Shown here piece by piece: positions 5,779 to 63,916 of a DNA stretch of 64,000 nucleotides. Both the position numbers and the translations under genes were made by a program. Numbering within the stretch: position 1 is the first letter of the stretch; each line of letters starts with the position of its first letter. The notes under the pieces are model-generated. The model was not told the origin of the DNA. It saw nothing but the letters and a program-made list of their open reading frames with translations, and did no database searches. The stretch comes from Methanoregula sp. PtaU1.Bin051 (GTDB taxonomy: Archaea; Halobacteriota; Methanomicrobia; Methanomicrobiales; Methanospirillaceae), in NCBI GenBank assembly GCA_002067895.1, contig MVRE01000003.1, forward strand, positions 62,001-126,000, in the 5' to 3' direction.

Positions 5779-5796
5779 GCACATAAATATTATATG
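5779..5796. promoter_or_regulatory. TATA-like element between divergent ilvC and mptA
   Basis: An A/T run reading CATAAATATTATATGG lies about 30 to 40 bases upstream of the ilvC ATG, suitable for an archaeal TATA box serving ilvC with a short leader containing AAGGGAAG. On the other strand it lies about 105 bases upstream of the preferred mptA start. Which strand it drives is inferred from spacing only. Confidence 0.45.
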
Positions 5797-5900
5797 GAAA
5801 AAAACCAATGGCACAGTCTCAGTAGTCACCATACAGGATGCGATAGCTTATTCCGAAGACACGCACCCACGACAAGACGGAGAACCAGTTCACCCGCGAG

Positions 5901-6848
5901 CTGCCAGACATACAGGCAACGTCTCCCGATGTCCGAATCAACCTTACCCGGGTCGGCGTAAAGAACGTAAAAAAACTGGTAGAGGTTGCCCGACCGGAAA
6001 AACGCCCGGTCATCTTCATCTCTACCTTTGACGTCTACGTTGACCTGCCTGGCAGCCTCAAGGGGGCCAACCTCTCGCGGAATTTCGAAGTCATCGATGA
6101 GGTGCTCCAGCAGGCCATCGACGGGGAAGTCAACGAGATCGAGAAACTCTGCAGCGCTGTTGCGCGAAAACTGCTCGACCGGCACGAATACGCGGAACGG
6201 ACTGAAGTGCTGATGCGCAGCGAGTTCATGGTCAAGCGCGAGACGCCGGTCAGCCATACGGCCTGCCACGAGGTCGTCAAGGTTCACGCCCGCGCCATTG
6301 CCCGCAGGACATTCCGGAAACCAATCGTCAGGAAGAGTATCGGTGCGGAAGTGACCGGCATGACCGCATGCCCCTGTGCCCAAAACATCATGAAGGAGCG
6401 TGCGATGCGTGTCCTCCAAGAACTCGATATCGGCCAGGAAAAGATCGACGAGTTCTTCTCTGCAGTCCCTATGGCGACCCATAACCAGCGGGGCAAGGGA
6501 TTCCTCTGCATCGAGACTGACGACGACCAGCATGTCAACCTGGAAAAGATCATTGGTATCCTCAAAGGATCGATGAGCAGCGGCATCTACGAGCTCCTGA
6601 AAAGAGGTGATGAGGGGCAGGTTGTTCTCGCCGCGCACAAGAATCCGCGGTTCGTCGAAGATTGCGTACGGGAGATGGCGAAGATGGTACTCGCGGAGTT
6701 CGATTACCTCTCGGGGGACTCCGTCGTCACCATCAAACAGACCAACGAGGAGAGCATCCACCAGCACGATGCGTATGCCGAGCGGCGGGCCACGCTTGCC
6801 GAGTTGGTCGATGAACTGAACGGTGAACGGCTCAACCGGCAACACTGA
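5901..6848 (+). CDS. mptA: GTP cyclohydrolase MptA (FolE2-like), probable non-AUG start
   Basis: Converts GTP to 7,8-dihydroneopterin 2',3'-cyclic phosphate, first step of tetrahydromethanopterin synthesis. Family motifs are VRINLTRVGVKNV, LPGSLKGANLSRNFEV, EVTGMTACPCAQ with the metal-ligand region, and ATHNQRGKGF. The conserved N-terminus begins about 200 bases before the first in-frame ATG (6102). Upstream, the frame runs to a TAG at 5844-5846 and contains no ATG, GTG or TTG before 6096. CTG 5901 would give PDIQATSPDVRINL, close to family N-termini as I remember them; ATT 5850 with GGATG upstream is the alternative. Product about 315 aa. Confidence 0.88.
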   Translation: MPDIQATSPDVRINLTRVGVKNVKKLVEVARPEKRPVIFISTFDVYVDLPGSLKGANLSRNFEVIDEVLQQAIDGEVNEIEKLCSAVARKLLDRHEYAERTEVLMRSEFMVKRETPVSHTACHEVVKVHARAIARRTFRKPIVRKSIGAEVTGMTACPCAQNIMKERAMRVLQELDIGQEKIDEFFSAVPMATHNQRGKGFLCIETDDDQHVNLEKIIGILKGSMSSGIYELLKRGDEGQVVLAAHKNPRFVEDCVREMAKMVLAEFDYLSGDSVVTIKQTNEESIHQHDAYAERRATLAELVDELNGERLNRQH

Positions 6849-7148: not shown

Positions 7149-8516
7149 TTGTCGAAAGTTGTAGAGATTTCCCCGACCACAAGACATGAGGGACACTCAA
7201 AACTTGTCTTGAAGGTTAACGACGCCGGAATCATCGAGAAGGGTAACTGGTGCTCCATTACCCCGGTGAGGGGCGTCGAGAAGCTTGCCGTCGGCAAGAC
7301 ACCTGAGCAGGTTCCCAAGATCGCGTCCCGCGTCTGTGGTATCTGCCCGATTGCCCACAACCTCGCGGGCACCGAAGCGATGGAAGCATCCATCAAGTGC
7401 GAGATCCCGAACGATGCAAAGCTGCTCCGTCACATCCTGCAGCTCGCAAACCGGGCTCACAGCATTGCCCTGCACAACATCCTGCTCCTGCCCGACTATT
7501 ACATCCCGGGCACGGAGACCAAGATTAACCCGTTCACACCGGAAGAGCCGGTGCGCTCCGTTGCGAAGCGCATCCAGCGCATCCGAGAGATCGGCCAGAC
7601 CATCGGCCAGATCGCGGCCGGCGACTGCATCCACCCGCGGAACACCCGGGTCGGCGGCATGTACCGGAACGTCTCAGAGCAGGCCAAGACCAAGATGTAC
7701 GACCTCGCGAAGGAAGGACTTACGCTTGCACACCAGCAGGCAGAGTTCATGATCGCAGTCATCCGCAATTACCATAACAGGGATTTCGTGGATGTCGGCG
7801 GCATGAAGGTCCCGATGCCTAAGACCCTTGGGTACCACAACCAGGGTTACCTCGCGACTCATGCATTCTATGGCAGCAGCAGCCTTGACGAGTGCCCCAG
7901 CTGGGACATCCGCAGGTTCAAGGAAGCCCGCCCGTACGACTGGTACATGGGCGAGATGGAAGTAACCCTCGAAGAGCCCAAGTACCCCATCGGCGGCACC
8001 ACCAAGCTCGGCACCAAGACCAACCCGCAGATGGAAGCCTGCACCGGCATCCCGATGTACGACGGCCAGCCTGTCGAGGTCGGCCCGCGTGCACGTCTGG
8101 TCACGTACAAGAACTACGATGAGAAAGGCACTGCCGGCCAGAACATCGCCCGCCAGATGGAGTACCAGGACTGCTTCTACGAGATGATCGATTGTCTCGA
8201 CGAACTCAACCCGAACGGAAAGGTCGTTGCAGACTACATCCCGGACGGCGACGGTTCACTCGGCTGGGCATCAAATGAAGCTCCGCGCGGGACCGATGTC
8301 CATATTGCCCGGGTCAAGGACTGGAAGGTACAGTACTACTCCATGCTCGTCCCGACCACCTGGAACTTCGCGACCTGCAGCGCAGCACTCACCGGTGCTC
8401 CGTGGCAGCTCGCCGAAGTCATCATGCGGGGGTACGACCCCTGTGTGTCATGTGCAACCCACATGATTGTCGTGGATGAGGAGAACAGGCTGGTAGCCCA
8501 GAAACTCATCCAGTGA
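7149..8516 (+). CDS. frhA: Coenzyme F420-reducing [NiFe] hydrogenase, alpha (large) subunit
   Basis: Catalytic Ni-Fe subunit of the soluble F420-reducing hydrogenase, which supplies F420H2 for methanogenesis from H2/CO2. The first Cys pair is in RVCGICPIAHN near residue 65, the second in DPCVSCATH near residue 440. The residues after the second motif (MIVVDEENRLVAQKLIQ) form the C-terminal peptide that the maturation protease removes. Start is TTG 7149, preceded by GAGG; no ATG matches the conserved N-terminus. 455 aa. First gene of frhADGB; frhD follows after 10 bases. Confidence 0.96.
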   Translation: MSKVVEISPTTRHEGHSKLVLKVNDAGIIEKGNWCSITPVRGVEKLAVGKTPEQVPKIASRVCGICPIAHNLAGTEAMEASIKCEIPNDAKLLRHILQLANRAHSIALHNILLLPDYYIPGTETKINPFTPEEPVRSVAKRIQRIREIGQTIGQIAAGDCIHPRNTRVGGMYRNVSEQAKTKMYDLAKEGLTLAHQQAEFMIAVIRNYHNRDFVDVGGMKVPMPKTLGYHNQGYLATHAFYGSSSLDECPSWDIRRFKEARPYDWYMGEMEVTLEEPKYPIGGTTKLGTKTNPQMEACTGIPMYDGQPVEVGPRARLVTYKNYDEKGTAGQNIARQMEYQDCFYEMIDCLDELNPNGKVVADYIPDGDGSLGWASNEAPRGTDVHIARVKDWKVQYYSMLVPTTWNFATCSAALTGAPWQLAEVIMRGYDPCVSCATHMIVVDEENRLVAQKLIQ

Positions 8517-25792: not shown

Positions 25793-26397
25793 GAATCAGC
25801 GAGATCTTTTATAGCATCCAGGGCGAGGGGAGGAACCAGGGGGCGCCGGCGCTCTTCATCCGTCTCGCCGGTTGCAACCTGCACTGCCGCTGGTGCGACA
25901 CGGAGTACGCTCTTACGGGCGGCGAGGAGATGAGCGCAGATGGTATCCTTGCCGAGGTTTCGCGTGCAAACCCCCGGCTGGTCTGTATCACGGGCGGCGA
26001 GCCGCTCCTGCAGACGGATGCACTCATCCCGGTCCTCAAAGAACTCCATAAAAGGGGGATTGCCATCGAGATCGAGACCAACGGTACGCTTGACTTCGCA
26101 AGCCTCCAGCCATACGCCACGATCTGCATGGACGTGAAGTGCCCGTCATCGGGGGAGGAAAGCGACCTGTCCCTTCTGTCCAAGATCCGGAAGGAGGACT
26201 CAGTGAAGTTCGTTGTCAGTGGTGAGGACGACTGCCGGTACGCACGGGAGGTCGTGAGTGTGCACCCGGTCAAAGGACAGGTCTTCTTCTCGCCGGTCTG
26301 GGGTGCGGATACCGCACCGATTGTCCGGTACATTATCAGGAACGATTTGCCGGTCCGGTTCCAGCTCCAGCTCCACAAAATTGTCGGTGTGAAATGA
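25789..26397 (+). CDS. queE: 7-carboxy-7-deazaguanine synthase (QueE)
   Basis: A 202-aa radical SAM enzyme making the 7-deazapurine ring from carboxytetrahydropterin. The cluster motif is [12 protein letters not shown] (C-x3-C-x2-C), preceded by [19 protein letters not shown]; the SAM-binding ITGGEPLLQ follows. Start at ATG 25789 inside the end of queD. Overlap with both neighbours (ATGA at each side) implies one tightly coupled queDEC transcript. Confidence 0.94.
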
Positions 26398-27062
26398 TGA
26401 AGGCGGTCTGCTTAATCTCGGGCGGGATGGACTCGGCAACACTGGCGTACCTTGCAAAGAGCGAGGGGTACGACATCCTCGCCCTCCACCTGAATTACGG
26501 GCAGAGGACGGAAAAAAAAGAGCGGAGCTGCGCACAGAAGATTGCACAGGATCTCAGCGCAAAGGAGTTTGTCGAGGTTGGCATCAGGTACCTCGCGCAG
26601 TTCGGCGCAAGCAGCCTTACGGACAGGATGATCCCGGTCGAGGACTTCGACCCGGCCCGGGCACACCTGCCCAACACGTACGTGCCGTTCCGGAACGCGA
26701 ACCTGCTCTCAATCGCAACGAGTTACGCTGAGTCTCGGGATGCGGACGCGATCTTCATTGGTGTCCAGTCACTCGATTACTCCGGTTACCCGGACTGCCG
26801 CCCTCAGTTCATCGAGGCGTTCCAGCGGGTGATCGAGCTTGGGACAAAGGATGCCACAATAATCGCCCTTAAAACCCCCTTCATCCGCATGAACAAGACG
26901 GATATCCTGAAACTGGGGATTAAACTCGGTGTCCCGTACGAGCATACGTGGTCCTGCTACCGGAATGAGGATACCGCCTGTGGCACCTGCGGGTCGTGCC
27001 ATTTCCGGCGAGAGGCCTTCGAGGCTCTCGGGATGAGGGACCCCATCCCGTACGAGGTGTGA
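26394..27062 (+). CDS. queC: 7-cyano-7-deazaguanine (preQ0) synthase
   Basis: A 222-aa ATP-dependent PP-loop enzyme converting carboxydeazaguanine to preQ0. The PP-loop is [12 protein letters not shown] near residue 8; C-terminal zinc ligands are in [20 protein letters not shown]. It completes the preQ0 branch with queD and queE. A second ATG three bases after the first could also be used. Confidence 0.95.
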
Positions 27063-58676: not shown

Positions 58677-60248
58677 ATGCCTGTTTTTGGGCAGGTCCTG
58701 GGAATTGAAGGGACGGCATGGAACCTTTCCGCTGCTGTTTTCGATACCGATCTCATCGCCATCGTCTCCCGACCGTACCGGCCTCCACAGGGGGGCATCC
58801 ACCCACGCGAAGCAGCACAGCACCATGCTTCGGTTATGGGTGAAGTGATCAACTCGGTTTTAGATGATCATAAGAAGATCACTGGTATCGCATTCTCGCA
58901 GGGACCGGGGCTTGGGCCATGTCTTCGAACGGTTGCAACGGCAGCACGGTCGCTCGCTCTCGCCCTTGACGTGCCTCTCGTCGGTGTCAACCACTGTGTT
59001 GCCCATATCGAGATCGGGCGGTTTGCTACCGGGTGTTCCGACCCGATCGTGCTGTATGCCAGCGGGGCAAATACACAGGTGATTGGGTACCTCAACGGGA
59101 GATACCGGATTTTTGGCGAGACGCTCGACATCGGTATCGGGAATGCACTGGACAAGTTTGCACGGTCGAAAGGCCTCCCTCACCCGGGCGGCCCGGCGAT
59201 CGAACAGCTGGCAGAGAAGGGAAAGTACGTCCAGCTGCCGTACACCGTCAAGGGGATGGACCTCGCATTCTCGGGGCTGATGTCGGCAGCAAAAGAAAGC
59301 CAGACTTCCCTTGAGGACGTGTGCCATTCGTTCCAGGAAACGGCTTTTGCAATGTGTGCCGAGGTGACAGAACGCGCCCTTTCGCTATCGGCTAAGAACG
59401 AGGTGCTCCTTGTGGGAGGCGTGGGTGCGAACCGGCGGCTACAGGAGATGCTCCGCATCATGTGCGATGATCGCGGGGCGGAATTCTTTGTCCCCGAACA
59501 GAAATACCTTGGGGACAACGGGGCCATGATCGCATACACCGGCCGGCTGATGCTTGAATCCGGGCAGTCACTCCCGATAGAATCCTCGCAGATCAATCCC
59601 TCGTTCCGTTCCGACCAGGTGGATGTGACCTGGATGCCTCCGGAGCGATCTGTCAGGGATCAGCTTGAAGGATCAGGCATGACAGCTCGCGGGGCCGAGG
59701 CGATCGTGGAATTCAAGGGAAAGGCTGTTGTAAAACGCCGTCTGTCCAAGCGGTACCGGGTACCGGCCCTGGATGCGCAGTTAATTGCTGAGAGAACCAG
59801 AGCTGAAGCCCGGCTGATCGCCGCTGCACGCAGGGCCGGCGTGTCTACACCGATTATCCATGACATAACAACCGATACAATTATCATGGACAGAGTTGAC
59901 GGTCTGCTCCTGACACAGGGGTTGTCAGCCGACTCCGTGCGGAATGCAGGAAAAGTGGTAGGAAAACTGCACGCTGCTGGTATCATGCACGGGGACCTGA
60001 CCACCAGTAATATTATCATGGAAAATGACCGCTGTGTCCTTATTGATTTTGGCCTTTCCCAGGCAACAACGGAGCTCGAGCAGCGGGGCGTGGATCTCCA
60101 TGTCTTCTTCCAGACACTCACGAGCACTGCAGTCGATTCCATGGCGCTTAAAAACGCATTCTGCGAGGGTTACCGTGAAACATTTGCCGGCGCTGATGAA
60201 GTGATCACCCGCGAGCATGAGATCGAACTTCGGGGGCGGTATCTCTGA
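58677..60248 (+). CDS. kae1-bud32: Kae1-Bud32 fusion: tRNA t6A synthase and its kinase
   Basis: A 523-aa fusion of two KEOPS subunits. Kae1 (residues 1 to about 325) has metal-binding VNHCVAHIEIG and LPHPGGPAIEQ; with Sua5/TsaC it forms t6A37 in ANN-decoding tRNAs. Bud32 (about 330-523) is a small atypical kinase with GAEAIVEFKGKAVVKRRLSK, IMHGDLTTSNIIM and VLIDFGLSQ. The fused form is common in Euryarchaeota. Its stop overlaps the CTG start of the next gene. Confidence 0.96.
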   Translation: MPVFGQVLGIEGTAWNLSAAVFDTDLIAIVSRPYRPPQGGIHPREAAQHHASVMGEVINSVLDDHKKITGIAFSQGPGLGPCLRTVATAARSLALALDVPLVGVNHCVAHIEIGRFATGCSDPIVLYASGANTQVIGYLNGRYRIFGETLDIGIGNALDKFARSKGLPHPGGPAIEQLAEKGKYVQLPYTVKGMDLAFSGLMSAAKESQTSLEDVCHSFQETAFAMCAEVTERALSLSAKNEVLLVGGVGANRRLQEMLRIMCDDRGAEFFVPEQKYLGDNGAMIAYTGRLMLESGQSLPIESSQINPSFRSDQVDVTWMPPERSVRDQLEGSGMTARGAEAIVEFKGKAVVKRRLSKRYRVPALDAQLIAERTRAEARLIAAARRAGVSTPIIHDITTDTIIMDRVDGLLLTQGLSADSVRNAGKVVGKLHAAGIMHGDLTTSNIIMENDRCVLIDFGLSQATTELEQRGVDLHVFFQTLTSTAVDSMALKNAFCEGYRETFAGADEVITREHEIELRGRYL

Positions 60249-60805
60249 AGATAACGGTCGTCACCGGTAACGCCCACAAGGCAAAGGAGGTCGCAGAGTT
60301 CTTTGCCGGGAGTGCAGAGATCACGCATGTCAACCTCGATTGCCCGGAGCACCGTGATGATGATGTACAAAAAATTGCAACCGGGAAAGCGGAATTTGCC
60401 TACCAGCAGCTGAAGACGCCGCTGATCGTTGACGATACGGCGTTTTCCATCACGGCATTCGGTGGGTTCCCCGGCCCTTACGCTGCATACGTCCTCAAGA
60501 CACTCGGGAATCACGGCATCCTGAAGCTGATGGAGGGAATCTCAGACCGGAGTGCCAGCTTTACGACTGCAATCGCATTTGCCGATGATGGAATCCTGCG
60601 GGTTTTCACTGGTTCAATCTACGGGACGCTGACAACAGAGCCGCGGGGAACTAACGGATTCGGGTATGATCCGATCTTCTCTCTTTCCGATGGGAGGACG
60701 CTTGCCGAACTGTCGCTTACAGAGAAAAGCGCAATCTCGCACCGTGCAAGGGCGCTTTCAGCTTTTAAGGCGTGGTTTCTGGACAGGTACGGCAGCAGCC
60801 GGTAA
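60245..60805 (+). CDS. XTP/dITP diphosphatase (HAM1/RdgB family), CTG start
   Basis: Removes non-canonical purine NTPs such as ITP and XTP. Reads KITVVTGNAHKAKEVAEFF, then PLIVDDTAFSITAFGGFPGP, TTEPRGTNGFGYDPIF and AISHRARALSAF, so the whole family is present over 186 aa. The first ATG in frame is at 60530, in the middle of the domain. Upstream, between a TGA at 60218 and the conserved start, there is no ATG, GTG or TTG. The CTG at 60245 (CTGAAG) sits exactly at the conserved N-terminus and overlaps the kae1 stop as CTGA, analogous to ATGA coupling. Confidence 0.9.
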   Translation: MKITVVTGNAHKAKEVAEFFAGSAEITHVNLDCPEHRDDDVQKIATGKAEFAYQQLKTPLIVDDTAFSITAFGGFPGPYAAYVLKTLGNHGILKLMEGISDRSASFTTAIAFADDGILRVFTGSIYGTLTTEPRGTNGFGYDPIFSLSDGRTLAELSLTEKSAISHRARALSAFKAWFLDRYGSSR

Positions 60806-63352: not shown

Positions 63353-63426
63353 GGGCTCGTGGTCTAGCTGGTTATGACGTCGCCTTCACACGGCGGAGGT
63401 CTCGAGTTCGAATCTCGACGAGCCCA
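63353..63426 (+). tRNA. tRNA-Val(CAC)
   Basis: 74 nt. Acceptor GGGCTCG/CGAGCCC with discriminator A; anticodon loop TTCACAC flanked by TCGCC/GGCGG gives anticodon CAC; T arm TCGAGTTCGAATCTCGA. It lies 4 bases after tRNA-Gly, so the two are co-transcribed. No intron, CCA not encoded. Confidence 0.96.
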
Positions 63427-63496
63427 TCGCTGTTTTCGTGCTTATTTCATTCAGCAATAACCTCTTTTGTCTTGCGTATAAATCATCCAGTACGCT

Positions 63497-63916
63497 ATGA
63501 AACGCTTCATCATTGTTGGCATTATTAGCGGACTTCTCTTTGGTCTTCTCGATGGGATCATCAATGCTAATCCAATCGCGATGGGGTTCTATGAAGTCCA
63601 CTCCCCCTTGGCGCGGGCCTCGATTAATGTCCCTGCCGGGATTGTCATCGATCTTGCGTACGGGTTTATTCTCGCAGGATTGTTCCTCTTGTTTTATGCG
63701 AGTCTGCCCGGGAGGACGGGGTTGCAGAAAGGGATCAGTTATGCAGTCGTGATCTGGTTTCTGAGGGTTGTGATGTCCGTTCTCTCACAGTGGATGATGT
63801 ATATCATACCGACCACAGCGCTACTCTATACGCTAATCGCCGGGCTCATCGAGATGCTGGCTCTGGGGATCTTCTATGGTCTGATGCTGAAGCCGGCGGT
63901 CTCGCAGGGGGCTTGA
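63497..63916 (+). CDS. Membrane protein of unknown family, four helices
   Basis: A 139-aa hydrophobic protein. Helices cover about residues 3-23, 48-70, 80-103 and 108-130; small polar links include INANPIAMGFYEVHSP and SLPGRTGLQKG. No catalytic motif. It starts 70 bases after tRNA-Val with no clear ribosome-binding site. Nothing recognisable follows to the window end. Confidence 0.65.
   Translation: MKRFIIVGIISGLLFGLLDGIINANPIAMGFYEVHSPLARASINVPAGIVIDLAYGFILAGLFLLFYASLPGRTGLQKGISYAVVIWFLRVVMSVLSQWMMYIIPTTALLYTLIAGLIEMLALGIFYGLMLKPAVSQGA

Follow-up and report, generated by a model that had tools for sequence, protein, structure and literature searches.

A conserved ATT as the proposed initiation codon of mptA in Methanoregula sp. 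PtaU1.Bin051 and its relatives

The mptA gene of Methanoregula sp. PtaU1.Bin051 raises the question of where its translation begins. The window, the whole stretch of 64,000 nucleotides that was analysed, had been read earlier from its letters and open reading frames only, and this sequence-only reading claimed that no ATG, GTG or TTG precedes the codons for the conserved VRINLTRVGVKNV stretch. That claim was borne out in the mptA frame downstream of TAG 5844. The other landmarks pointed out upstream, namely TAG 5844, ATT 5850 and CTG 5901 in the mptA frame and GGATG upstream (5836-5840), all read as claimed. On the other hand, the codons named as the first GTG (6096) and ATG (6102) were misread: position 6096 starts a GAT, 6102 is a GTG, and the first in-frame ATG lies at 6213. 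The features of the locus are as follows.

5785..5794, + strand: TATA-like element AAATATTATA, a putative promoter element 65 nt upstream of the ATT
5836..5844, + strand: Shine-Dalgarno-like block GGATGCGAT, conserved at -14 to -6
5838..5846, + strand: ATG CGA TAG, a two-codon open frame within the Shine-Dalgarno-like block, read in the mptA frame
5850..5852, + strand: ATT, the proposed mptA initiation codon, assigned as initiator in 66 of 97 family genomes
5853..5900, + strand: putative 16-codon lineage-specific N-terminal extension, based on pN/pS in the genus of the window (g1) and absent in 18 of the 20 other-family genomes read
5901..6848, + strand: mptA core, GTP cyclohydrolase MptA, matching TIGR00294 and PF02649

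The mptA locus and its missing canonical start

The product is assigned to MptA by a TIGR00294 score of 438.9 bits, above the curated cut-off of 220 and covering the whole model (positions 1-301 of 302). This match begins at 5904, while the Pfam match (PF02649) begins one residue ahead of it, at the Leu encoded by 5901. The genome carries a single copy of mptA, the rest of which is open. The first canonical start beyond the last in-frame stop, GTG 6102, falls within the conserved core, and starting there would cost the first 66 residues covered by TIGR00294. Thus mptA has no canonical start at its N-terminus, as would be expected of an AUU-initiated gene of the infC and pcnB kind. An in-frame ATG that the sequence-only reading had not mentioned (5838) sits directly ahead of the TAG; the resulting two-codon frame is probably incidental.

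We screened the window for stop-to-stop open reading frames (ORFs) of at least 120 codons in which the first canonical start lies at least 25 codons from the upstream stop. This screen gave 66 ORFs, 65 of which were scanned with Pfam (63389-63784 was left out), and 15 of these had matches at E ≤ 0.001. The best match began before the first canonical start only in mptA and in a HAM1-type gene at 60245; in ORF 26226-27059, a secondary match below the cut-off starts one residue early, but the best match, QueC, does not. The missing canonical start at mptA is more than chance.

The ATT and its surroundings among relatives

The gene was searched for in 61 genomes and then in 108 genomes of the window's family, 98 of which carried mptA. 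The N-terminal region was readable in 97 of them (G116, whose match lacks the N-terminus, was left out), and initiator offsets were assigned by hand from the aligned loci. The assigned initiator was ATT in 66 genomes, ATG in 25, ATA in five and GTG in one, counts that do not represent independent events as the sequences are related. The comparison of sister-species mptA starts that had been proposed earlier thus found the ATT to be common to most of the family genomes read. The ATT genomes span nine genera (g1, g5, g8, g9, g10, g11, g13, g15 and g16), and comparable entries in named collections are mainly metagenome assemblies of Methanoregula and Methanolinea, with Methanospirillum farther off. 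The ATT stands 17 codons ahead of the conserved Leu in g1 and g5, 12 codons in the other ATT genera and 18 in G094. An in-frame stop lies two codons ahead of it in 33 of the 66 genomes.

A canonical in-frame start near the ATT was absent from 32 of the 66 ATT genomes, the window's own included, and present at varying places in the other 34. The six g1 relatives read carry TTG at -19 or ATG at -21 (codons before the Leu), which leaves the window's genome as the sole g1 member of the seven without a canonical in-frame codon nearby. Since these nearby alternatives differ from species to species in both position and type whereas the ATT stays, the ATT is favoured.

The 25 ATG rows are mixed. In g4 and g6 (seven genomes), the extension is missing and only one codon separates the ATG from the codon just ahead of the Leu, so that the start is at -2, while upstream ATG starts were found in g12 (nine), g2 (two) and one clade of g5 (seven). 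The place matching the ATT is occupied by ATG in g2 and by GTG in g17. In the g5 clade, the ATG lies two codons ahead of the old site, where the former ATT now reads ATT in three genomes, ATA in three and ATC in one. Among the ATA rows, that of G020 is a doubtful initiator with GTG codons upstream. In G109 (locus L089, g12), ATA was observed where the close relatives G036 and G117 carry the mptA ATG, possibly a switch from an ATG to an ATA start. In three genomes of three genera, G066 (L065), G130 (L083) and G102 (L050), one base appears to be missing between GCGATG and ATT, so that an ATG comes into frame two codons ahead of the ATT; these are possibly natural switches from AUU to AUG. Outside the family, 20 of the 24 same-order genomes with a match were read (G040, G051, G052 and G057 were left out), and 18 of these 20 start with ATG two codons ahead of the Leu; in G038 and G048, both of family f3, the ATG is farther upstream.

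Alignment of 62 rows revealed two conserved islands, GG[AG][TA]GCGAT at -14 to -6 and a T at -1 together with the ATT, the conservation of the ATT/ATA column owing partly to how the rows were selected. The AUU is thus conserved along with an upstream Shine-Dalgarno-like block, and the T at -1 is found in 60 of the 66 ATT genomes. Because the 16S rRNA gene of the own genome is truncated, with only its first half present (G000:C13:198924-199662) near the end of a contig of 199,689 bases, the 16S 3' end of the relatives G004, G032 and G019 (GGATCACCTCCT) was used; G034 gave no match. This end pairs with the block: GGATGCGAT matches its complement, GGAGGTGAT, at seven of nine positions, with a duplex energy of -6.8 kcal/mol. 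Of the 66 ATT genomes, 65 have a TATA-like motif, picked by eye, at a distance of 49-77 nt ahead of the ATT, the exception being G028 on a short contig. Judging from its position and the spacing usual in archaea, the mptA leader is probably about 20-45 nt long. The two stretches usable for folding the RNA over the start folded no better than shuffles (z = -0.18 and -0.46), and no AAU or CUA anticodon that would mark a dedicated tRNA occurs among the 39 tRNA matches in this genome. Downstream, the gene at 7149-8516 (+ strand), which we take to be frhA, has its first canonical start, a TTG, behind GAGGCGATAGCA / GAGGCGAT, and the Shine-Dalgarno-like block ahead of it resembles that of mptA.

The third base of the assigned initiator is constrained. 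In an ordinary Ile codon, the third base should drift; among the AT[TCA] initiators, it was T in 66 genomes, A in five and never C, whereas these genes otherwise use ATC most often for Ile (140 ATC, 62 ATT and 49 ATA). On the tree (41 rows), the third base of the initiator changed four times, only between T and A, as against 8, 13 and 10 changes in three conserved Ile codons of mptA, which mostly read ATC.

The codons between the ATT and the core evolve as coding sequence in most of the genera compared. In g1, the extension gave a pN/pS of 0.19, with 48, 16 and 141 differences at the first, second and third codon positions, while the same bases read in the shifted frames gave 1.28 and 2.91. 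The values were 0.17 in g16, 0.53 in g5 and 0.57 in g15, with higher values for the shifted frames in each; in g9 (0.92), no protein-level selection was seen. The mptA core ranged from 0.02 to 0.07. As a control, eight codons upstream in the same frame gave 0.60 in g1 (two pairs only), 0.93 in g5, 0.63 in g15 and 0.56 in g16, and this upstream region is not neutral in every genus. Pairs differing at more than 45% of bases were dropped, keeping 21 of 21 pairs in g1, 153 of 406 in g5, 43 of 55 in g9, 35 of 55 in g15 and 6 of 6 in g16; genera represented by fewer than three genomes were left out, as were the g5 rows whose offset differed. By these ratios, selection acts at the protein level on codons 5853-5900 in the genus of the window.

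Alternative readings and the history of the AUU start

From these comparisons, we consider it very probable that mptA is translated from AUU 5850 to give an MptA of 332 residues that carries a short lineage-specific extension, and that this is a real feature rather than a base error. The suggestion that a non-AUG codon is used is thereby supported by the conserved ATT and block and by a reading frame that is conserved in most of the genera tested. Two such codons had been put forward, and only ATT 5850 stands up. A start at CTG 5901, which would give the family-like N-terminus LPDIQ, agrees with the PF02649 match beginning at that very residue (and TIGR00294 at the next), with the ATG two codons earlier in most outgroups, and with the seeming use of CTG at the HAM1-type gene of the window. 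Nevertheless, the aligned codon in the 66 ATT genomes is CTG in 28, TTG in 19, TTA in six, CTT in six, CTC in four and CTA in three, it changes 18 times on the tree, and the codons 5853-5900 ahead of it appear selected as protein in g1. We read it as an ordinary Leu codon, and its use as the start is highly improbable. An error of sequencing or assembly, or decay of the gene, is the most remote of the explanations weighed: the window's genome is a 23-contig assembly, but the ATT occurs at the same place in 66 genomes, and the same anatomy is seen in the single-contig genomes G004, G011, G032 and G105-G107. Decay is at odds with the open remainder of a single-copy gene. The base error or frameshift offered earlier as the other way out is accordingly unsupported.

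The ATG codons upstream of the ATT allow three further readings. Ribosomes that finish the two-codon frame ATG CGA TAG beside the ATT might re-initiate there, and an ATG at -12 does occur in 29 of the 66 ATT genomes, with a stop before the ATT in 26. This ATG is, however, restricted to g1 and g5, the other ATT genera having mostly GGGAG or GGAGAG at this place, and it coincides with the Shine-Dalgarno-like block; the ATT would remain the start codon under re-initiation too, which we regard as distinctly unlikely. It is very unlikely that ribosomes begin at the out-of-frame ATG 7 nt ahead of the ATT and then shift frame by +1. Although this ATG is found in 49 of the 66 ATT genomes, and G066, G130 and G102 appear to be one base short so that it falls in frame, it is not conserved as programmed frameshifting would have it: 17 of the 66 lack an ATG at -7. 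Three of these carry it in frame instead, and the 17 also take in the whole of g1 (seven genomes, with that of the window) and the g10, g11 and g16 rows with ATT. Besides, the shifted frame stops at once in many g5 genomes, though not in others, and no conserved slippery site was seen in the aligned loci. Hardly any weight can be given to a start at ATG 5838 with readthrough of TAG 5844 by pyrrolysine or a suppressor. ATG CGA TAG does fall in the mptA frame, with ATG CGA TGA in its place in most g5 genomes, but the ATG is missing in 37 of the 66 ATT genomes and the third codon elsewhere is TAG, TGA, TCA or TTA. PylS exceeded its curated cut-off in none of the 108 family genomes (one of 14 control genomes passed), and the 39 tRNA genes found by matching in the window's genome include no CUA anticodon.

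If translation starts at AUU 5850, GGATGCGAT would position the 30S subunit in a leader a few tens of nucleotides long, and initiator tRNA-Met (anticodon CAU) would then pair with the first two bases of the AUU. A fourth pair, between the U at -1 and A37, would perhaps add to this. MptA would then begin with Met at the AUU. The AUU and the N-terminal extension would have arisen in an ancestor of most of the family and been kept, with later changes to ATG, GTG or ATA in some lineages. A quick protein tree of 69 rows, which takes in 58 of the 97 family rows (the rest having no full-length sequence) and from which the f3 loci L200 and L201 are missing, gathered every row whose initiator is not AUG into a single group of 55, which includes the later ATG rows. 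The support of this group was modest (SH-aLRT 84), and at least six changes between ATT and other codons were counted. On this tree, one early gain of the AUU with later losses is the simplest reading.

Known AUU starts and the possible role of AUU in mptA

Several AUU starts are described in bacteria. That of Escherichia coli infC, encoding IF3, is presented as functional and as regulating expression (PMC1780047). By sequence comparison, mptA appears to resemble infC in using AUU as a start codon, but the infC product is a bacterial factor that discriminates against AUU and controls itself, whereas MptA is an archaeal cofactor-biosynthesis enzyme. Autoregulation of the infC type, in which the product is a start-codon fidelity factor, does not fit a product that is a GTP cyclohydrolase by family match. 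In E. coli pcnB (printed pncB in the text, pcnB in the reference title), AUU is described as limiting expression (PMC1780047); this gene is like mptA in lying outside translation initiation, though it is bacterial. An AUU start is assumed for lepA of Borrelia burgdorferi and Bacillus licheniformis (PMC1780047). As in mptA, it was deduced from sequence, with no canonical start restoring the full-length protein, but these are isolated bacterial cases, and the passages of PMC1780047 on them describe no family-wide conservation. Compared with the MptA family (TIGR00294, PF02649), the core of mptA here matches fully, whereas the proposed AUU and 16-codon extension set it apart from the ATG two codons before the Leu found in most other-family genomes. 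Searches of the open-licence PMC literature, judged by titles and the beginnings of abstracts, brought up no report of an AUU start in an archaeal mptA, and subscription journals could hold some.

In archaea, discrimination against start codons other than the canonical ones is favoured by aIF1 (PMC6237735). Weak pairs at the third base, AUU/CAU among them, yielded very little product in a reconstituted E. coli system (PMC10158994), and AUU may be a poor initiator in mptA. AUU starts are very rare: a reconstruction covering 36 groups of bacterial and archaeal genomes found a change to AUU in one of 61,358 ancestral AUG starts (PMC5622118). Since aIF1 favours such discrimination, the AUU should lower initiation in mptA, and the lowered efficiency would set a low level of the first enzyme of the methanopterin pathway. 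We prefer this low expression as the reason for the AUU, ranking it above coupling to the translational state, the bolder idea. The latter, for which we see limited odds, holds that the AUU might have been kept as a control point that couples the first methanopterin enzyme to initiation fidelity or translational state, given the discrimination by aIF1. It would be an infC-type counterpart for cofactor supply, near-cognate starts forming a used but under-annotated regulatory layer in Methanomicrobiales with the HAM1-type CTG as a second case.

If the AUU start is true, its conservation on a single-copy gene in nine genera offers a clear natural test case for archaeal start-codon selection, and gene callers restricted to ATG, GTG and TTG would mis-start MptA in such genomes.

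The other ORF singled out by the window screen is the following.

60245-60805, + strand: HAM1-type (XTP/dITP diphosphatase-like) gene with an apparent CTG start, from Pfam; no canonical start before the match

The HAM1-type gene was matched in 61 of 61 genomes, and 30 loci were fetched, of which 29, from this family and others of its order, were readable. The aligned start codon was CTG in 13 and GTG in 16 of these. Because of this apparent CTG start, near-cognate starts in this genome are probably not confined to mptA. In the sequence CTGA, this CTG shares two bases with the stop codon TGA that ends the preceding open frame, presumably kae1-bud32-like.
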